Shown here piece by piece: positions 2 through 20,773 of a stretch of 64,000 nucleotides of DNA. The translations under genes and the position numbers were made by a program. This DNA comes from Maribellus sediminis. GTDB lineage: Bacteria; Bacteroidota; Bacteroidia; Bacteroidales; Prolixibacteraceae. Location: NCBI RefSeq assembly GCF_011799805.1, contig NZ_WXUB01000004.1, forward strand, positions 248,001-312,000, written 5' to 3'. Numbering within the stretch: position 1 is the stretch's first letter; every line of letters begins with the position of its first letter. A model generated the notes under the pieces. It worked only from the letters and a program-made list of their open reading frames with translations. It was not told where the DNA came from and did no database searches.

Positions 2-406
2 CAATACAAAGCTGAGACCATACTTAGCCGGATTCTTTTTGCTTTTTCGGCCATCGGAATATTTATAAGTATGATCGGGATAAGTGCCATGGCGCTCTTT
101 ATTTCGCAGCAACGCACCAAGGAAATTGGTATCCGGAAAGTTAACGGAGCAACAGTCTCAGAAATTTTAGGACTGCTCAACCAAAGCTTTGTACGTTGGG
201 TGATAATTGCTTTTGTATTTGCAACGCCGATTGCCTGGTACTCCATGCATGAATGGCTCGAAAACTTTGCCTACAAAACCACTTTAAGCTGGTGGATTTT
301 TGCATTGGCCGGTATGCTGGCTCTGGGAATTGCGCTTCTAACGGTAAGCTGGCAAAGTTGGCGGGCAGCCACAAGAAATCCTGTTGAGGCCTTACGATAC
401 GAGTAA
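2..406 (+). CDS. MacB/FtsX-type ABC transporter permease, 3' end only (5' cut by window edge)
   Basis: The reading frame is open from base 2, the first complete codon, so the gene starts before the window. The 134 visible residues are the last FtsX unit of a long permease: a transmembrane segment ending in SMIGISAMALF, the cytoplasmic QQRTKEIGIRKVNGA loop (the coupling helix expected to touch the ATPase), then two more transmembrane helices. The protein ends NPVEALRYE, the same end as the other permeases of the array. An ATG at base 71 lies inside the conserved unit and is not the true start. It is followed by a palindromic tail repeat and a DUF559 element rather than directly by another permease. 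The transported substrate cannot be told from sequence. Confidence 0.9.
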   Translation, partial: QYKAETILSRILFAFSAIGIFISMIGISAMALFISQQRTKEIGIRKVNGATVSEILGLLNQSFVRWVIIAFVFATPIAWYSMHEWLENFAYKTTLSWWIFALAGMLALGIALLTVSWQSWRAATRNPVEALRYE

Positions 407-413
407 GGGGTAG

Positions 414-457
414 ATCCCGACAGCATCGTCGGGATTGAGGTACTTCGATACGAATAA
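414..457. repeat. Palindrome plus duplicated permease gene end (copy a)
   Basis: Arms ATCCCGA (414-420) and TCGGGAT (429-435) can form a hairpin. They are followed at 437-457 by GAG GTA CTT CGA TAC GAA TAA, which reads E-V-L-R-Y-E-stop. This is a second, out-of-gene version of the permease end (E-A-L-R-Y-E-stop at 386-406). The same layout recurs at 951, 17066, and in decayed form at 11414 and 20730. Confidence 0.8.
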
Positions 458-925
458 TAGTTCACCCCAAACCCCTGAAGGGGTTTAAAGAAAAAGATGA
501 TGGATATAAACGATAATATTTCAATGTTTTACGGCGCAAAGCCTCATATTTTTGAAAAAGCGAAAATGCTGAGAAAGAATATGACTGGGGCAGAAAAGTT
601 ACTATGGGAGCAACTAAAAGGAAAGAAAATATTGGAATTACGGTTTCGTTCGCAACATCCAATTGACATTTTTATCGCTGATTTTTACTGTCATCCATTA
701 AAACTTGTAATTGAAGTTGATGGAGGAATTCATAAATCTAAAGAACAAAATGAATATGATATTGGAAGAACTGCTGAGTTAAATTATTGGGGAATCGAGG
801 TAGTAAGATTCACAAATGAAGAGATTGAAAATGATATAAAAAAAGTAATTAATTCGATAAAGCAGAAATGTTTAAATCGCCAATCGGAGATACAAAAAAG
901 TCCCCTTTAGGGGATTTAGGGGTAA
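458..925 (+). mobile_element. Small putative mobile element carrying a DUF559 nuclease gene, with inverted-repeat ends
   Basis: The left end (about 458-486) reads TAGTTCACCCC followed by an AACCCCTGAAGGGGTT palindrome. The right end (about 899-925) holds a CCCCTTTAGGGG palindrome and then TTTAGGGGTAAA. The reverse complement of the right end starts TTTACCCC, so the two ends are imperfect inverted repeats of about 26 bp, each containing its own small palindrome. A single gene fills the space, and its stop codon lies inside the right repeat. A second copy with the same two ends but no intact gene is at 8040-8179, which supports the boundaries. No clear target-site duplication is visible. The element lies between two copies of the tail palindrome (414-457 and 951-996). 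Confidence 0.6.
497..910 (+). CDS. DUF559 domain protein, predicted PD-(D/E)XK-type endonuclease
   Basis: This 137-residue protein matches the DUF559 family, which is related to very-short-patch-repair-like nucleases. Visible family features are the helix MTGAEKLLWEQL (about 29-40), LRFRSQHPIDIFIADFYC (48-65), the acidic core LVIEVDGGIH with D62, E73 and D75 as likely metal ligands, and a late GIEVVRFTNEEI strand-helix. There is no signal peptide, so it should be cytoplasmic. The start could be base 497 or the adjacent ATG at 500. It stands alone between inverted repeats and is the only gene of the element around it. Whether it cuts DNA to move that element is inference. Confidence 0.85.
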   Translation: MMDINDNISMFYGAKPHIFEKAKMLRKNMTGAEKLLWEQLKGKKILELRFRSQHPIDIFIADFYCHPLKLVIEVDGGIHKSKEQNEYDIGRTAELNYWGIEVVRFTNEEIENDIKKVINSIKQKCLNRQSEIQKSPL

Positions 926-950
926 AAAACTTGGCGGACAGCATCAACAG

Positions 951-996
951 ATCCCGCGATCGAAGCATCGGGATTGAGGTACTTCGATACGCGTAA
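951..996. repeat. Palindrome plus duplicated permease gene end (copy b)
   Basis: ATCCCG at 951-956 and CATCGGGAT at 966-974 form an imperfect hairpin. GAG GTA CTT CGA TAC GCG TAA follows at 976-996 (E-V-L-R-Y-A-stop). No permease lies directly upstream: the preceding gene is the DUF559 gene. This copy therefore appears to have been duplicated or separated from copy a by the element between them. The tail sequence is closer to that of copy a than to any real permease end in the window. Confidence 0.75.
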
Positions 997-8039: not shown

Positions 8040-8179
8040 TAGTTTACCCCAAACCCCTAAAGGGGCTTCTGGTAGCGAGCACTGAAAAAGATTTGTGAAG
8101 AAAATGAGCTAGAATATAAAATAGATGATACGTCAATAGGAGATACAAACAAGTCCCCTTCAGGGGATTTAGGGGTAAA
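8040..8179. mobile_element. MITE-like deletion derivative of the DUF559 element
   Basis: The left end TAGTTTACCCC with its AACCCCTAAAGGGG palindrome matches 458-486. The right end (CCCCTTCAGGGG then TTTAGGGGTAAA) matches 899-925. Just inside the right end the sequence still resembles the last codons of the DUF559 gene (CAA TAG GAG ATA CAA against CAA TCG GAG ATA CAA) but with an in-frame stop. The rest of the gene is missing, leaving about 140 bp. It lies 2 bp after the stop codon of the permease that ends at 8037. Confidence 0.6.
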
Positions 8180-8202
8180 GAAAAAGCAGTGTTTTTAACC
8201 CC

Positions 8203-9027: not shown

Positions 9028-11400
9028 ATGCTATTCAAAAACTTACTGATCGGTTGGAGAAACATCCGAAAAAACGGGATATTCTCGGTAATCAATATTT
9101 TAGGACTTTCGCTTGGCATTGCAGTGGTAACACTCATCCTCTTTTGGGTGGTTGATGAGTTGAACTTCGATCGATTTCATAAAAATATCGATCAGATTTA
9201 CACCGTATACGAGCACCAGCAGTATTCCGAAGGACAGGAATTGTTCACTGCTAGCACTCCATTTCCGCTAGCACAGGAATTTATCAAAGAATTCAGCGAG
9301 GTAGAGCAGGCAACGACTTTTGCTTATGTAGGAGATCACCTGATGCGTTACGGCGATAAGGAAATTAAGGACGGGCCGTTTCTTTGTGTCGATAGTTCGT
9401 TCATGGAAGTCTTTTCCTTTGAAATAAAAGAAGGTGAAAAAGATGCTTTGTCAGCCCCCGATAAAATGATCATCGATGAAGAAGTCGCTGCCAGCCTTTT
9501 TGGCGACGAACCGGCGGTGGGGAAGACGATTAAAATTAACGATGGGCAGTCGCTTACAGTAGGTGCAGTCGCTAAAAAAATTGGTAAAAATTCATCCATC
9601 GGTTTTAAGGTGCTGATTCCGATTCGGTTTCTTCAGAATGAATATGGTGTTGATCCAACCCGCTGGGGAAACAACTGGCCACGAACCAGTTTGGTATTGG
9701 CCGAAAACGCCGATGCAGAAGGACTGAACGCCAAGATCACGAACTTTTTAAAAGAGCGTGGTCAGGACAATACAACGCTCTATCTTTTCCCATTTCAGAA
9801 AGAACGGCTGCATTCTTTCTCCGGAAAAAATAACCGTATTCAATACATCTACCAGTTTTTGGGAATTGCTTTTATCATTATCCTTATTGCCTCCATCAAT
9901 TTTATCAATTTGTCGACTGCCAAAGCTGAGCAGCGTCGCCCCGAAGTTGGGATCAGAAAAGTACTTGGAGCCAATAAATTTTCAATTCTGAACCAGTTTC
10001 TCCAGGAGAAGGGAATGATGATTATACTGAGCTTACTGCTTAGTATTATTCTTGTTTTGTTGTTTATTCCGGCATTTCGGTCGGTTTCTGACAAAACCGT
10101 AAGCATTGGTTTACTGCAAAATAAGTTCATGTTAATGATGCTGCTTGGTGTAGTTGTTACAGTTCTGGTTTTATCGGTAGTTTACCCTGCAGTTTATATA
10201 TCGTCGTTTAGTCCGGCACAGGCCATAAAAAAGGCACATAACGGCCGAAATGGAAAGCTCGGATTGAAGAATGTACTGGTGGTTTTGCAGTTTGTTCTAT
10301 CGGTAGTATTAATAACCGGAACACTGGTGATTTCGCAGCAATTGAGGTTTATAAATAATTACGATCTGGGGTACAACCATGCCAATCTGGTTTATCTTCC
10401 ACTTAGTGGCGAAGCAAAGACCAAACATGAAGTGCTGAAAAAAGAGTTTACCAGGATTTCGGGAGTAATAAATCTCACACGGACAGACCGCGTTCCTTTT
10501 TACGGTGGAAATTCATCGTGGGGCTTCGAGTGGGAAGGAAAAGATCCGGAGAATAAGGTGCTGATTTGTAACATGCAGGCCGACCGGAACTATTTTGAAA
10601 CACTGGGCATTGAAATGGCTGAAGGAAACAACTTCCCGGAATCGTATGAGGAAGTTCAGAATCAGGAAACACTAAAATCGCCAAAAATAATATTGAACCA
10701 GGAAGCTGTGAGACGAATGCAGTTGATGGATCCGGTAGGAAAGTTTTTCGGACGATCGGGTGATGAGGAGAAAGGAACAATTGCAGGCGTAGTTAGCGAT
10801 TTTCATTTTGAATCGTTGCACCGGGGCGTTGAACCGATGGTAATAACACCACTTTTCAGCAACCCTGATTATATTATTGTTCGTATCGATCCCACTGTTT
10901 TCAAACAAACAATTGAAAATATTAAACAAGCCTGGGCCGGCGTATTACCTCAGTCGGTTTGCGAAGTAAAATTCTTCGACGATGAGATTGAAGGACTTTA
11001 CAATTCTGAAGTACGAATCTCTGGCTTATTCCGCTATTTCACCTTTGTTGCCATTTTTATTTCCTGCATTGGTTTGTTTGGTTTATCACTTTTTGTTATC
11101 GAACGAAGAAGAAAGGAAATCGGTGTAAGAAAGGTTAATGGTGCAAAAATTGGCGAAGTGATGTTCCTGCTCAATAAAGATTTTATTCGCTGGGTGATCA
11201 TTGCTTTTGTTATTGCCTGTCCGATTGCCTGGTTTGTCATGCATAAATGGCTCGAAAACTTCGCCACTAAAACCAATCTTAGCTGGTGGATTTTTGCCTT
11301 ATCCGGATTTATGGCTTTGCTGATTGCCATACTTACAGTAAGCTGGCAGAGTTTTAAAGCGGCCACCCGAAATCCTGTCGAGGCACTCAGGTATGAATAG
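9028..11400 (+). CDS. MacB/FtsX-type ABC transporter permease, full length (790 aa)
   Basis: It has the same two-unit layout as the other long permeases: N-terminal helix (IFSVINILGLSLGIAVVTLILFW), a periplasmic core with the FGDEPAVGKTIKIN landmark, coupling loop RPEVGIRKVLGANKF (about 309-323), a second periplasmic domain with FHFESLHRG, and a final unit with RKEIGVRKVNGAKIGEV. The C-terminus (WWIFALSGFMALLIAILTV...SFKAATRNPVEALRYE) differs slightly more from the array consensus than its neighbours do. It begins 114 bp from the divergent alkD-like gene, so its own promoter is expected there. A decayed tail palindrome and a terminator-like hairpin follow it. Confidence 0.9.
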   Translation: MLFKNLLIGWRNIRKNGIFSVINILGLSLGIAVVTLILFWVVDELNFDRFHKNIDQIYTVYEHQQYSEGQELFTASTPFPLAQEFIKEFSEVEQATTFAYVGDHLMRYGDKEIKDGPFLCVDSSFMEVFSFEIKEGEKDALSAPDKMIIDEEVAASLFGDEPAVGKTIKINDGQSLTVGAVAKKIGKNSSIGFKVLIPIRFLQNEYGVDPTRWGNNWPRTSLVLAENADAEGLNAKITNFLKERGQDNTTLYLFPFQKERLHSFSGKNNRIQYIYQFLGIAFIIILIASINFINLSTAKAEQRRPEVGIRKVLGANKFSILNQFLQEKGMMIILSLLLSIILVLLFIPAFRSVSDKTVSIGLLQNKFMLMMLLGVVVTVLVLSVVYPAVYISSFSPAQAIKKAHNGRNGKLGLKNVLVVLQFVLSVVLITGTLVISQQLRFINNYDLGYNHANLVYLPLSGEAKTKHEVLKKEFTRISGVINLTRTDRVPFYGGNSSWGFEWEGKDPENKVLICNMQADRNYFETLGIEMAEGNNFPESYEEVQNQETLKSPKIILNQEAVRRMQLMDPVGKFFGRSGDEEKGTIAGVVSDFHFESLHRGVEPMVITPLFSNPDYIIVRIDPTVFKQTIENIKQAWAGVLPQSVCEVKFFDDEIEGLYNSEVRISGLFRYFTFVAIFISCIGLFGLSLFVIERRRKEIGVRKVNGAKIGEVMFLLNKDFIRWVIIAFVIACPIAWFVMHKWLENFATKTNLSWWIFALSGFMALLIAILTVSWQSFKAATRNPVEALRYE

Positions 11401-11413
11401 GGCGTGAGTAAAG

Positions 11414-11456
11414 ATCCCGTCCGAAACATCGGGTTGGAAACCTCTTTTACATGAAT
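11414..11456. repeat. Decayed palindrome plus duplicated permease gene end (copy c)
   Basis: ATCCCG at 11414-11419 and ATCGGG at 11428-11433 are followed by TTGGAAACCTCTTTTACATGAAT. This aligns with the TTGAAGCTCTTCGGTATGAGTAA tail of the copy at 17066 but no longer reads as LRYE-stop. It lies 13 bp after the stop of the permease that ends at 11400. Confidence 0.55.
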
Positions 11457-14686: not shown

Positions 14687-14704
14687 CCTAATATGCATCT
14701 AGCG

Positions 14705-17053
14705 ATGAAAAACACATTAAAACCAATAATCAGAAATTTTATTCGCAAACCAGCGATTAACCTGATCAATTTGTTTGGTTTAGCGATAAGTTTAGTATTC
14801 GTAATCATATTGTCGGTTTATTGCTATAACGAATTAACAACCGATACGCACCATGCAGGTGGAGACCGGATTTACCTGATTGGTAAACCGGGCGCAGGAA
14901 TGAACACTCCGGCCATATTAAAACCACATATCGATATGGAAGTTCCGGGAGTGGAAGCATCCATTCGAGTAGCAGGCACTTGGCAAGCTCCGGTTTTTCA
15001 AACAGAGAACGGGGAGCCGATTACCTCCGACCTTATCTTTTCAGATCCTGATTTTTTCAGCTTTTTTAATTACAAAACCGTTGAAGGAGATTGTGCTGCT
15101 GCGTTGAATAATCCCATGTCGGTGGTAATTACCAAACCGCTGGCGAATAAACTTTTTGGACGTAATTCCGCTCTTGGAGAAACAATAAAATATAACAACG
15201 AAAAACTGTTAACAGTATCGGCAGTTATTGAAAAACCAACCGGAAATTCCTTTCTCAATTTTAGTGCCCTTACTTCAATCGAAACCCGCAAAATCCTTCA
15301 GCCAAGCGAAGGAGAATTTAAAGAATGGGGCTGGTCTAATTTTCAAACCTACTTGCTGTTAGGCGAAAATGCCGATCCGACGCAGGTGGCCAAAACCATT
15401 TTTTCGGTATTTCCTAAAGAATTTCAAAAGTGGGTTGAGGAGATTCATTTGATAAAATTGAAAGATGTCTATTTCTCAAATTTGCAAACATTCGGAGCTC
15501 ATCATGTTAGCATGGGAGACAAAACCAAAGCTTTAATTCTGCTATTCGTAGCCGTACTTATTCTGATTATTGCATTGGTGAACTTTATAAACATCTCGTC
15601 GTCGCAATGGATGGAAAGGATAAAACAAACAGGTGTTTTAAAGGTTATCGGAGCAACGCGGATCATCATTTTCAGGAAAGTGCTGAGCGAAACTTTTCTT
15701 GTGTTTATAGCCGCCGTAATTTTAGCCCTGGTTATAATGGCCGGAATTACTCCAATTATTCAAAGCTATACCGGCATTCAATTCAGTACAAAACTTATTT
15801 CCAGCCCGAAACTATTAAGCATTCTATTTACAGCAACTCTGGTTTTTAGCCTTATTTTAAGTTTGATTCCCGGCTTTAGTATTTCGTCGTCAAAGGCCGT
15901 TAATAATCTTAAAAGATCAGTCGATCAAAATTCAAAAAAAACGTATTTGCGAAACGGATTGATTACGCTGCAATATGTGATTTCGATTGTGTTGATTGCA
16001 TTTACAACGCTTATCTACAAACAAGTTGAATTTGGAAGCAACAATCTTGTTTTCAACCAGGAGAATACCATAGCGGTTAAACTTACTCCGCAGTTGGATA
16101 AAAACATTATCAAAGATGAATTTGAGAAAATACCGGAAGTGCAAAATGTGTCGATGTCTCAGTTTTATCCGGGAAAACAATTGTCGAGTTGGGGAACCAG
16201 GTTAAAGCTGGATGGACAGGAACACGAAGTCCATTTTACAACTTTTAGTGCCGATGCCGAATTCTTTTCGATTATGAACCTTGAAATAGTGCAAGGGCGG
16301 CTTTATTCCGACGCCTCTGAAAAGGATAAGAATAAGGTAATTGTTAACGAAACATTTTTGAAGGAATTTAATATTGAGAATCCCGTTGGCGGAACCTTCG
16401 AAATGAATAATAATTTCGATTATGAAATAATCGGGGTAATGAAGGATTTTCACTTTAAATCAGTTGAAAATGCGATTGGTCCTCTTGCGATTATTAATCA
16501 GGGTTATGCTTCCTATGGTTTGGCAACTATTCAGGCAGGCGATTTTAATTCACTTTCTTCAACACTGAAAAAAATTAACCAAGTTGCCTCACAGATCTCC
16601 CCGGCATTTCCTGTTGAGGTAAGTTTTCTTGATTCAGCAGTTAAAAATATGTACGAATCTGAAGTTCGTTTTCGACGGACGTTTTCATTGTTTTCTATAA
16701 GTGCAGTTATTATTTGTGCGATGGGAATTCTTGCCATGTCGATTTTTGCCAGCCAACGCCGGATAAAAGAAATCGGCATCCGTAAAGTAAACGGAGCTAA
16801 GGTCTCGGAAATCCTTTCAATGTTGAATAAAGACTTTGTGAAATGGGTATTAATTGCTTTTGTAATTGCCACACCTGTTGCGTATTATGCCATGAATCGA
16901 TGGCTTGAAAACTTTGCATACAAAACCAACTTGAGCTGGTGGATTTTTGCACTGGCCGGAAAACTTGCCCTGGGAATAGCCTTGTTAACGGTTAGCTGGC
17001 AAAGCTGGAGAGCGGCTACGCGAAATCCTGTCGAAGCTCTCCGATATGAATAG
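14705..17053 (+). CDS. MacB/FtsX-type ABC transporter permease, full length (about 782 aa)
   Basis: The start at 14705 (MKNTLKPIIRNFIRKP) aligns best with the paralogs' N-termini; an in-frame ATG at 14693 would add four residues. Layout: helix INLINLFGLAISLVFVIILSV, periplasmic domain with FGRNSALGETIKYN, a degenerate first coupling loop (RIKQTGVLKVIGATRI instead of KEIGVRKVNGA), a second periplasmic domain with EIIGVMKDFHFKSVEN, and the conserved last unit RIKEIGIRKVNGAKVSEI. It ends NPVEALRYE. A clear tail palindrome follows it at 17066. Confidence 0.9.
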   Translation: MKNTLKPIIRNFIRKPAINLINLFGLAISLVFVIILSVYCYNELTTDTHHAGGDRIYLIGKPGAGMNTPAILKPHIDMEVPGVEASIRVAGTWQAPVFQTENGEPITSDLIFSDPDFFSFFNYKTVEGDCAAALNNPMSVVITKPLANKLFGRNSALGETIKYNNEKLLTVSAVIEKPTGNSFLNFSALTSIETRKILQPSEGEFKEWGWSNFQTYLLLGENADPTQVAKTIFSVFPKEFQKWVEEIHLIKLKDVYFSNLQTFGAHHVSMGDKTKALILLFVAVLILIIALVNFINISSSQWMERIKQTGVLKVIGATRIIIFRKVLSETFLVFIAAVILALVIMAGITPIIQSYTGIQFSTKLISSPKLLSILFTATLVFSLILSLIPGFSISSSKAVNNLKRSVDQNSKKTYLRNGLITLQYVISIVLIAFTTLIYKQVEFGSNNLVFNQENTIAVKLTPQLDKNIIKDEFEKIPEVQNVSMSQFYPGKQLSSWGTRLKLDGQEHEVHFTTFSADAEFFSIMNLEIVQGRLYSDASEKDKNKVIVNETFLKEFNIENPVGGTFEMNNNFDYEIIGVMKDFHFKSVENAIGPLAIINQGYASYGLATIQAGDFNSLSSTLKKINQVASQISPAFPVEVSFLDSAVKNMYESEVRFRRTFSLFSISAVIICAMGILAMSIFASQRRIKEIGIRKVNGAKVSEILSMLNKDFVKWVLIAFVIATPVAYYAMNRWLENFAYKTNLSWWIFALAGKLALGIALLTVSWQSWRAATRNPVEALRYE

Positions 17054-17065
17054 AGGAGAGCAGAG

Positions 17066-17109
17066 ATCCCGATCGAAGCATCGGGATTGAAGCTCTTCGG
17101 TATGAGTAA
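17066..17109. repeat. Palindrome plus duplicated permease gene end (copy d)
   Basis: ATCCCGA (17066-17072) and TCGGGAT (17081-17087) are followed by GAA GCT CTT CGG TAT GAG TAA (17089-17109), which reads E-A-L-R-Y-E-stop. This is the best preserved tail copy. The real gene end just upstream has different synonymous codons, so the tail is not a simple recent copy of it. Confidence 0.8.
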
Positions 17110-18355: not shown

Positions 18356-20722
18356 ATGAATTTTTTGCATTTTAAAAACAGCATCCGTTTTTTACTAAAA
18401 AAGAAAAGCTATCTCCTGATCAATATTCTGGGGCTTGGAATCGGAATAGCGGCTTTTTTAATTCTTTTCATTTACGTGTATAACGATTTTACTTACAATC
18501 ATTTTAATAAGAATCTCGAGAATATTTATCGTGTACGTGAAGGGAAGGGAGAGCAAACAAAAGGCTTGTTGCTGGCTGAAATGCTTAAGCAGATTCCGGA
18601 AGTTGAGAACGGAACCCGGATTTTTGACTGGGACGGATACCGACTTGCTTACGAAGACGTAGCTTCACCTGAAAACGTTCATTATGTTGATACGGGATTT
18701 TTCTCGGTATTTTCTTTTCCCTTTATTGAAAAGGGTACCGGTGATCATATTAAAGAAAAGTATAACGCAGTTGTAAGTAAAGATTTTGCGGAGCGTTTTT
18801 TCGGGAATGAGTCGGCTATCGGGAAAAAGTTGCAAGTGCAATTCGGCAATAATTACCTGACCGTGAACGGTGTTGTGGATATTCCCGATAATTCTTCGGT
18901 AAAATTCGACATTGTTACATCGTATGAAACCGGGGAATCTATCTCTCCCTGGGTAAAACAGGTGCACGACTGGTACAACACATTCTCAATGACTTATGTT
19001 TTGCTAAAAAGCGGGACAAAGCCGGAAAGTATATACGATAAAATGCAGCAAATTGCCGAAGCAAATTTTTTAACAGGCGAGAATAAGAAACCCGAAATGA
19101 ATTTGCTTGCGTTTAAAAATTATCATTCCGAACAGGAATCAAACCGGACGCTCATTATCATTCTTGGAGTAATTGCAATTGGGATTTTAAGTATTGCAAT
19201 GGTAAACTTCATCAACCTGACAATCACCAATTCGCTGGGGCGAACAAAAGAGATAGGTGTGAAAAAAGTGGTTGGAGCAGGAAAAGGTTTTCTGATTCGC
19301 CAAATCATGACAGAATCGTTAATGGTCAGTTTTATTGCTCTTTTACTCGGAGTGCTTCTCGCTAATATCTTTCTTCCTCAGTTTAACCAGTTGTACGATA
19401 CCCGGCTCCATTTTAGCTTCACACAAAACAGGCTTTTGATGCCGGTTCTTGTTTTTATCTGGCTTTTGGTGGGCTTGCTTTCGGGAACCATACCCGCAGT
19501 GTATTTAGCTCGAATGGGGTCGATGGATAGTTTACGCGGTCAGGCAATTAAAAATGGGAAAGTCGGAATGTCGAAATACTCGCTTGTTGTTGTGCAGTTT
19601 GCAATTGCAATAGCGCTTATTTCAGGTACTTTTTTGGTACAAAAGCAGATTCGGTTTATGATAAACCAGGATCCCAAATTTGATAAGGAAAATGTGGTGG
19701 TGGCCGAATTGAGTGGCTGGGAGTTTAAAGATTTAGAGGCTGCATCGCTAAAATATAAGCGAATTGCCGAGGATTTGGAATCAAGCCCGTTTGTCGAATC
19801 AGTTTGCTTTTCGCAATGCACTCCCGGAAATTACAACCATAACTATAATACCTTTTATACTGAAGGAGGAAGTGATGTTGAAAGTATTCACCTTCGCAAA
19901 GCATATGTAGGAAGAAACTATTTCAAAACCTTTGGAATTAAACTGCTTGATGGAGAAGGATTTTCGGATGAAACACGAAATTACGAGAGAAACCTGGTTT
20001 TAAATAAAAAAGCCATGGAAACTCTGGGCTACGGAAGTGTGGGAGATCAGATTCTTCACGAAAGCGTCAGAACGGGTACTGCAAACAAAATTATCGGAGA
20101 AGTGGAGGATTTTGCTTATCAGGGAGCACAGTATGAAATGCAACCGGTTGCACATATTTTTACCGAACAGGAAAATTATACCAATTGGAGTTACCTGTGT
20201 GTCAAATCGAAACCGGGAACCAGTCTGCAGGTGGTTGAATTACTCAAAAATGAATGGAAAACTACCCAGCCGGAGTCTGCATTATCTTTCTTTTTTGCAG
20301 AGGATAAACTGAATGAACAATACAGGGAATATGAAAAAATTAAACAAATAATTACCTGGTTTTCGCTGGTGGCCATTGTACTTTCCTGTATCGGTTTGTT
20401 TGCCCTCTCATCCTACGCCATCTCGCGTCGGATTAAAGAAATTGGAGTAAGGAAAGTAAACGGTGCAAAAGTAGGCGAAGTAATTGCCTTGCTAAACAGT
20501 GATTTTTTACGTTGGGTAGCCATTTCGTTTGTGATTGCGGTGCCGATTTCGTGGTATGCGTTAAACCGCTGGCTCGAAGGTTTTGCTTTGAAAACCAATT
20601 TAAGCTGGTGGATTTTTGCATTGGCCGGAGTGCTGGCGCTGGGAATTGCTTTACTAACTGTAAGCTGGCAGAGTTGGCGGGCTGCAACACGGAATCCTGT
20701 TGAGGCTTTAAGGTATGAGTAA
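18356..20722 (+). CDS. MacB/FtsX-type ABC transporter permease, full length (788 aa)
   Basis: It has the N-terminal helix YLLINILGLGIGIAAFLILFIYVY, a periplasmic domain with FGNESAIGKKLQVQFG, first coupling loop TKEIGVKKVVGAGKG, fifth helix LVVVQFAIAIALISGTFLV, and a second periplasmic domain with the less typical IIGEVEDFAYQGAQYE where others have GVVKDFHF. The last unit is RIKEIGVRKVNGAKVGEV. The end follows the array consensus (WWIFALAGVLALGIALLTV, NPVEALRYE). It starts 47 bp after the half-size permease and is followed by a decayed tail repeat. Confidence 0.9.
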   Translation: MNFLHFKNSIRFLLKKKSYLLINILGLGIGIAAFLILFIYVYNDFTYNHFNKNLENIYRVREGKGEQTKGLLLAEMLKQIPEVENGTRIFDWDGYRLAYEDVASPENVHYVDTGFFSVFSFPFIEKGTGDHIKEKYNAVVSKDFAERFFGNESAIGKKLQVQFGNNYLTVNGVVDIPDNSSVKFDIVTSYETGESISPWVKQVHDWYNTFSMTYVLLKSGTKPESIYDKMQQIAEANFLTGENKKPEMNLLAFKNYHSEQESNRTLIIILGVIAIGILSIAMVNFINLTITNSLGRTKEIGVKKVVGAGKGFLIRQIMTESLMVSFIALLLGVLLANIFLPQFNQLYDTRLHFSFTQNRLLMPVLVFIWLLVGLLSGTIPAVYLARMGSMDSLRGQAIKNGKVGMSKYSLVVVQFAIAIALISGTFLVQKQIRFMINQDPKFDKENVVVAELSGWEFKDLEAASLKYKRIAEDLESSPFVESVCFSQCTPGNYNHNYNTFYTEGGSDVESIHLRKAYVGRNYFKTFGIKLLDGEGFSDETRNYERNLVLNKKAMETLGYGSVGDQILHESVRTGTANKIIGEVEDFAYQGAQYEMQPVAHIFTEQENYTNWSYLCVKSKPGTSLQVVELLKNEWKTTQPESALSFFFAEDKLNEQYREYEKIKQIITWFSLVAIVLSCIGLFALSSYAISRRIKEIGVRKVNGAKVGEVIALLNSDFLRWVAISFVIAVPISWYALNRWLEGFALKTNLSWWIFALAGVLALGIALLTVSWQSWRAATRNPVEALRYE

Positions 20723-20729
20723 GCCGATA

Positions 20730-20773
20730 ATCCTGACAGAATAGTCTTGTTGGAGACACTCAGATATGAGTGA
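20730..20773. repeat. Decayed palindrome plus duplicated permease gene end (copy e)
   Basis: ATCCTGA at 20730 and a degraded right arm (GTCTTGTT) are followed by GAG ACA CTC AGA TAT GAG TGA (20753-20773), which still reads E-T-L-R-Y-E-stop. The hairpin has decayed while the coding sense of the tail remains. Confidence 0.6.

Follow-up and report, generated by a model that had tools for sequence, protein, structure and literature searches.

The 64,000-nucleotide stretch of Maribellus sediminis DNA analysed here (the window, G000:C8:248001-312000) begins within an array of FtsX/MacB_PCD permease genes recognised by Pfam, and palindromes followed by a further copy of a permease end recur in it outside the genes. 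The question raised by this locus is which part of the repeat travels, and what its arrival does to the end of the gene. The repeat is real, but the preliminary description of the window placed the travelling part on the wrong side of the palindrome. The unit is a two-hairpin element of ~55 bases (50-65) that starts inside the permease gene, and the sequence behind its second hairpin is the displaced gene end.

All five sites reported earlier (414-457, 951-996, 11414-11456, 17066-17109 and 20730-20773; copies a to e) are present in the window. Their arms, given as ATCCCGA/TCGGGAT, are exact in copies a (414-435) and d (17066-17087) and altered in the other three: the left arm of copy b has two extra bases, the arms of copy c have changed bases, and the right half of copy e is decayed. 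The tail pattern E-(A/V/T)-L-R-Y-(E/A)-stop holds for a, b, d and e and fails for c (Table 1), and ATTGAGGTACTTCGATACG is common to the tails of a and b, as had been noted. A chance origin was rejected. The exact arms have 2 matches in the window and 0 in 100 shuffles, copy d used as a query in its own genome retrieves copy b at E 5.9e-7, and a second gene-end-like 24-mer after the stop exceeds the 99.9% shuffle quantile in 82 of 168 unique ends, against 0 of 168 in reversed sequence.

The whole-genome search that had been proposed revealed a sixth copy upstream of the window (C8:240559-240604) and no further full copy; the model was built from, and hence contained, the five copies, and scoring covered 150 of 694 first-look candidates. 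A further proposed check was whether every copy lies directly after a gene ending in LRYE. Copy b does not: what precedes it is a 28-base permease-end relic (score 31; the highest score in 60 shuffles was 27) and not an intact permease. It had also been reasoned that a palindrome common in the genome without the tail would speak against the unit. A palindrome common throughout the genome was rejected: in 5.6 Mb, a loosely defined palindrome occurs at 21 places and the exact arms at six, two of them being a and d. Tail-less palindromes do exist, at four exact-arm places (C5:1358583, C8:498482, C9:141984 and C10:228663) plus one relative, and are about as frequent in this genome as the six copies of the unit.

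In copies a and d the unit starts before the stop codon, and an additional hairpin, missed in the preliminary description, spans the stop (window 390-408 and 17036-17061; DNA folding z -4.2 and -3.93). This hairpin 1 holds the last codons EALRYE and the stop, and hairpin 2 is the palindrome described before. No hairpin 1 was recognised in copy b, which is absent from the R2 matches of the window. The permease that ends within copy d is 84% identical to a gene of Draconibacterium aestuarii (Prolixibacteraceae), its best named match.

Table 1. Window coordinates of the element copies, their parts and the adjoining permease genes.
Feature	Position	Strand	Basis or detail
Copy a, whole element	383-435	+	cmsearch R2 40.0 bits (a outside the R2 training rows); DNA fold
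Copy a, new end VEALRYE-stop	383-406	+	
Copy a, hairpin 1	390-395/403-408	+	
Copy a, hairpin 2	414-421/428-435	+	
Copy a, displaced gene end IEVLRYE-stop	434-457	+	Sequence; tail scan, locus L028
Permease-end relic directly before copy b	927-954	+	23/28 identical to permease end
Copy b	951-996	+	
Copy b, hairpin 2 with 2-base bulge	951-974	+	
Copy b, displaced end IEVLRYA-stop	973-996	+	
Copy c, decayed element, end of permease 9028-11400	11377-11435	+	R2 32.8 bits; R3 36.7 bits
Copy c, decayed displaced end LETSFT-stop	11434-11454	+	Sequence
Copy d, canonical T1 element	17030-17087	+	R2 73.5 bits (d among the 15 training rows)
Copy d, new end	17030-17053	+	
Copy d, hairpin 1	17036-17042/17055-17061	+	
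Copy d, hairpin 2	17066-17073/17080-17087	+	
Copy d, displaced gene end IEALRYE-stop	17086-17109	+	Tail scan
Copy e, decayed element, end of permease 18356-20722	20699-20755	+	R2 11.4 bits, E 0.76 (weak); R1 42 bits, e being an R1 training row
Copy e, displaced end LETLRYE-stop	20750-20773	+	Tail scan
FtsX/MacB_PCD permease, last codons within copy d	14693-17053	+	Pfam MacB_PCD 2.7e-32, FtsX 1e-21
FtsX/MacB_PCD permease before copy c	9028-11400	+	Pfam

In the permease ends of relatives (at least 125 rows), the bases that follow the stop complement the codons that precede it. Hairpin 1 exists in several versions, namely T1 (GCTCTCC/GGAGAGC), T2 (GCACTTC/GAAGTGC), T3 (GCCTTAC/GTAAGGC), GCATTAA/TTAATGC and others, and in T4 the hairpin (CACTCA/TGAGTG) lies inside the gene end itself. 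A Watson-Crick run of at least 6 across the stop was found in 63 of 93 filled and 12 of 107 empty family ends, and, in a wider set, in 67 of 104 ends with a tail and 15 of 271 without. Family-only sets were used for the type, tail, stack, diversity and run counts, and the wider sets include unfilled ends outside the family. When 3' flanks were swapped among filled genes, the mean run of filled ends in the wider set decreased from 5.65 to 4.63, and 707 of 2054 still had runs of at least 6, a consequence of the sharing of types among filled genes. Hairpin 2 also varies: among the matches listed, a CTGACAAACGAAGTTTCGTCAG-like hairpin replaces ATCCCGA..TCGGGAT behind the same kind of hairpin 1 at L078, L093, L138, L148 and L127, and some T4 elements (L081 and L232) have a third hairpin, CTGCCTGCGGTAGGCAG or near it, between hairpins 1 and 2.

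The tail had been thought to travel with the palindrome, and the variation of the two gene ends does not agree with this. Among 69 typed copies, element type is unlinked to the tail but for 1 of 24 columns (column 5, p 0.002), with flanking columns -6 and -1 likewise associated at p <=0.01. Within the gene, an association with type is seen at 11 columns between -22 and -1 and at none between -25 and -42, and three farther columns (-43, -54 and -64) are also associated at p <=0.01. Columns -18 to -12 served to define the types, which builds the association into them, and the remaining columns are the informative ones. Diversity in the tails matches that of ordinary gene ends, and the present ends are poor in variants. 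In the family, the diversity of LRYE-stop is 4.50 bits in filled ends and 6.09 bits in tails, against a mean of 5.93 bits (minimum 5.78 of 2000) in same-size samples of empty ends; in the wider set, 2000 trials of swapping end and tail within genes never reached the observed difference. The V-E codons are GTCGAA in 43 of 93 filled ends and in 6 of 107 empty ones. The own ends are type-specific and variant-poor, and therefore the present gene end is part of the element and the tail behaves as a former end of the ordinary kind. We infer that every tail is the former end of its own gene. Against this, tails still read EALRYE-stop in 54 of 93 cases, more than would survive neutral decay unless the insertions are young; tail detection favours intact tails.

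Comparison of orthologous loci with and without the repeat, the check suggested in the preliminary description, gave three filled/empty pairs in which both flanks match and the tail is nearest the empty end. Relative to the empty end G005 L090, mismatches of 24 number 2 in the tail and 8 in the own end of G026 L113 (flank identity 92.7% over 233), and 1 and 5 in those of G030 L094; relative to the empty end G005 L091, G030 L050 has 2 mismatches in the tail and 6 in the own end, with flanks 91.5% identical over 223. A stacking step is seen between G030 L138, where T2 precedes T4, and G031 L225, which has T4 only (95.3% over 234, ungapped). In G001, the reciprocal-best orthologue lacks an element at the copy-a site, and T3 stands at the copy-d site where the window has T1. 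This comparison supports the earlier proposal of an element that brings a copy of the gene's final codons with it on insertion and so keeps the target gene intact, and insertion with end replacement appears well supported by the sequences compared.

Stacks were counted in 213 unique family permease ends, of which 116 lack a tail, 85 carry a single tail, 9 carry two and 3 carry three. Two or more tails are thus present in 12 of the 213, the two-tail case L087 being doubtful with a second tail far off, and the mean tail match score drops outwards from 29.6 to 25.9 and 22.0 (n = 12, 12 and 3, small numbers). In a larger set the tail scan classified 105 of 391 ends as having a tail, 271 as lacking one and 15 as ambiguous; the regions were fetched around matches, so the filled-end counts are not prevalence.

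The systematic pair analysis consists of 18 looser pairs, each at least 0.75 identical both upstream and downstream, and here the empty end is nearer the tail in 9, nearer the own end in 5 and tied in 4. At least 176 loosely matched rows had been collected earlier, from which clear ones were picked by eye, and in a crude-regex listing 48 of 123 reciprocal pairs differ, many of them with unrelated downstream flanks or misjudged sites that deprive them of any value as evidence. The contrary pairs L028/L096 and L087/L301 match downstream only through dispersed CCCC-type repeats. For the contrary pairs L041/L080 (6 and 6) and L080/L090 (tail 9, own end 7), dispersed repeats are no explanation, and these pairs point to repeated events or to exchange at one site.

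We favour, with a probability of roughly 0.57, the insertion of a miniature two-hairpin element into the permease end, with the old end displaced as the tail. A gene-less element of about 50-65 bases would insert at the Val codon of a permease ending in N-P-V-E-A-L-R-Y-E-stop. The 5' side and loop of hairpin 1 would read (V)EALRYE-stop, and hairpin 2 would follow the stop. After insertion, the gene would terminate on element codons and its previous end would lie as a non-coding tail behind hairpin 2. The target sequence would be rebuilt at the new end, so that later elements could insert before earlier ones and stack. At the level of sequence, the comparisons demonstrate clean end-replacing insertions in three pairs, one stacking event and sharp left and right ends, together with arms that vary in concert and two-hairpin relatives dispersed outside permeases. 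Carrying EALRYE-stop probably lets the element persist in permease genes. It is also conceivable, at somewhat less than even odds, that a site-seeking element has turned into a mobile gene terminus, whose hairpin serves both as the movement signal and as the codons and stop of the target family. Changes in the arms would then have to keep both the pairing and EALRYE-stop, and repeated insertion would swap ends, so that the former ends could be read as a stack in permease arrays.

The main rival is short-tract exchange or template switching, in which nothing transposes and short-tract gene conversion or template switching spreads the unit among permease paralogues. A donor's end, hairpins and old end would pair with the single end of the recipient, the hairpins would promote the switch, and tails may be mixtures. 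That the unit contains the target's own sequence and that the arrays are tandem paralogues would follow naturally, and the weight of this explanation is raised because the 18-pair result is mixed, with the own end nearer the empty end in five pairs. Exchange of this kind would not by itself predict a left boundary that is sharp within the Val codon, with columns -25 to -42 unassociated, or copies of the same plan dispersed where no permease end is seen, and we consider it rather unlikely, although it deserves to be kept in view.

The distribution of the element bears on both explanations. The long type (R2, E up to 1e-3) was found in 36 and the T4 type (R3) in 37 of 140 family genomes. An order-wide draw (long type, E up to 1e-4, stricter filters) gave 2 positives in 393, the own genome and G465, whose assembly is 82% complete. 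Among 87 R2 matches, 72 overlap a permease stop under a strict rule and 1 is not readable. The 14 others, inspected by eye, comprise 8 deeper layers, 5 permease ends or relics that the strict rule overlooked, and one ambiguous match (G005:C11:1691811). Long-type elements thus lie almost exclusively at permease ends, and a mechanism based on paralogue homology would give the same pattern, which counts in favour of exchange.

The T4 type also lies outside permease ends. Of 119 R3 matches, 69 are at permease stops, 6 were not read, and the 44 others were judged by eye to be 30 dispersed intergenic copies and 14 layers, tails or permease ends. The 30 dispersed copies (113 inspected R3 matches) are spread over nine genomes of the genus and have GTTGAG, a variable hairpin 1, CGAAATCC and hairpin 2 in common; the own genome has one (C5:414913-414958), with its hairpin-2 relative at C5:414935. 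The dispersed copies end no permease, so hairpin 1 looks owned by the element rather than by the gene. In alignment A4, which comprises 21 hand-chosen dispersed copies and excludes near-duplicates and short or irregular forms of hairpin 1 (e.g., L179, L186, L188, L200, L201 and L240-L244), 4 of 4 hairpin-1 pairs change on both sides and 0 of 500 shuffles attained the covariation score; because the rows share ancestry, shuffle counts cannot be read as probabilities. The arms also covary in A2, the long-type alignment of 15 chosen rows. It was hand-picked from 13 of 19 long-type rows and two T3 rows, and the six rows left out were one regex-shortened row, two near-duplicates, one with another hairpin 2 and two with an imperfect hairpin 1. 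Because of this picking the A2 covariation is biased upwards, and the run counts over all filled ends are fairer. A3 (10 of 13 rows) alone gave no covariation, and its outermost hairpin-2 pair was in the wrong register.

A selected functional RNA structure at the stop codon, acting as a terminator, mRNA stabiliser or translation-coupling signal, would agree with hairpins 1 and 2 lying at or just after stops in operon-like arrays, and the similarity in sequence would then reflect function, which is compatible with mobility. As an explanation of the unit it is improbable, given that 116 of 213 family permease ends have no tail despite the regions having been fetched around matches, that the unit is gained as a clean insertion between orthologues, and that hairpin 1 is kept in dispersed copies ending no permease. 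Read by eye, the tail directly follows hairpin 2, with no U-run of the kind expected of an intrinsic terminator. A known RNA family was rejected, since a search of window positions 1-24000 against Rfam gave nothing at E 1 or below.

Tandem duplication of each gene's own end, with secondary palindromes, had been allowed for in the preliminary description and fits the resemblance of tails to gene ends and the 18 of 93 stop-to-tail distances equal to 24, a multiple of three, but it is highly improbable, as tails resemble their own gene's end (0.676) less than other filled ends (0.697) or unfilled ends (0.709), an order that argues against simple duplication, filled ends fall into few types, and the distances divide 43/26/24 by remainder modulo 3 (n = 93). 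Read-through extension of the permease was rejected because the stop-to-tail distance is not frame-preserving.

Insertion of a two-hairpin element, the preferred reading, calls for a mobilising enzyme. Movement would occur in trans through a structure-reading single-strand transposase (Y1/HUH, of REP or IS200/IS605 type); the fixed ends, free stem sequence, two hairpins and dispersed relatives are consistent with a protein that recognises the structure of single strands, as REP and IS200/IS605 transposases are described to do (PMC6006769). Y1 genes are present in at least 35 of 37 genus genomes and, as judged by eye with no statistical test, in or near the arrays of at least about nine genomes. 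In a tree of 40 hand-chosen Y1 proteins, those adjoining arrays fall into three lineages. An R3 scan of 40 Y1 neighbourhoods revealed no convincing flanking copies; its one clear match is a permease end in the G007 array, and L351 is borderline (E 0.0074). In view of the three lineages and the lack of convincing flanking elements by R3, a linked RAYT, at first a promising mobiliser, is not favoured. Among the matches listed, no Y1 gene lies close by in the element-rich genomes G031 and G005, and neither the 40 neighbourhoods nor the Y1 tree singled out a mobilising enzyme.

Certain integrative elements carry a copy of the 3' end of a tRNA or protein gene, restore the gene on insertion, displace the old end and may form tandem arrays; they are kilobases long and encode an integrase. 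The permease-end element is like them in that it contains a copy of the target end and displaces the old one, as judged from three clean pairs and one stack, yet 5 of the 18 looser pairs point the opposite way and 4 are tied. It is unlike them in its length of about 55 bases and its hairpins of free sequence, and the inserted unit of about 50-65 bases is too short for an integrase gene.

The element shares with REP/REPIN sequences and their RAYT (TnpA-REP) the short hairpin repeats, the doublets and a structure that is kept while the sequence drifts, and its copies include dispersed, mainly extragenic, structure-conserved ones (30 of 113 R3 matches; covariation in 21 chosen rows). GTAG REPs are described in the available text as often supplying the TAG stop codon of flanking ORFs (PMC3733652). 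Unlike in REPs, no RAYT is convincingly linked, the target is fixed in one gene family, and six target codons are supplied, not the stop alone. By eye, no GTAG stands at the hairpin feet in A2, A3 or A4, and GAAG/GGAG before both hairpins of the long types is only suggestive as a foot tag. Rickettsia palindromic elements (RPEs), in the available text, are miniature palindromes of about 150 bp inside ORFs that remain translatable, and they fuse a peptide into unrelated genes (PMC10969869). In contrast, the C-terminus is here replaced by an equivalent one in a single family, and there is no in-frame peptide within the ORF, which stops in hairpin 1, and the frame of the tail is not preserved. The permease-end element is assigned neither to the GTAG REPs nor to the RPEs, and the available text of PMC3733652 and PMC10969869 describes neither as carrying the end codons of one target family. 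IS200/IS605 elements are described as having two subterminal hairpins read by Y1 transposases (PMC6006769, text available in part), and the permease-end element shares the left and right end hairpins of their miniature derivatives; no guide tetranucleotide was recognised, and no IS200/IS605-type parent with the same ends and a Y1 gene was found in the 40 Y1 neighbourhoods. The titles and abstract openings searched contained no element bearing the end codons of its target family.

If the favoured reading is true, a selfish element avoids harm by supplying the part of the gene that it interrupts, and the locus is a compact natural case of this, with empty sites, filled sites and stacks on hand in about three dozen genomes. 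The hosts belong to a family of free-living Bacteroidota (Prolixibacteraceae). A hairpin under joint pairing and coding constraint, and site-finding by gene-less miniature repeats, would become testable. As a caution, such permease genes may have final codons and 3' flanks whose history differs from that of the remainder of the gene.

Other mobile-looking features lie near the arrays. A DUF559 gene (497-910, Pfam 2.1e-31) is framed by CCCCAAACCCC and CCCCTTTAGGGGATTTAGGGG (window 458-929), and similar frames follow two other permease stops (window 8040-8182 and G000:C8:243150 onward). The frame motif stands within 40 bases after 9 of 213 family permease ends, and the framed DUF559 unit may be another small mobile unit settling at gene ends. 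At L039:7335-7600, a gene-less set of the same kind, TCGCGTAGCGA and GGGACTTTTGCC, has a permease stop on one side and element copy f on the other, and seems to split that copy. By eye and among the matches listed, the array genes at L079 and L093 seem to differ by gain or loss of whole genes, the breakpoints falling at permease ends, as though recombination in the arrays took place there. A Y1 (IS200-like) transposase gene with its own TCGCRTAGCGA hairpins lies in the permease array at G000:C8:237206-237670 (L039:4206-4670), and close relatives of it sit in the G007 and G026 arrays.
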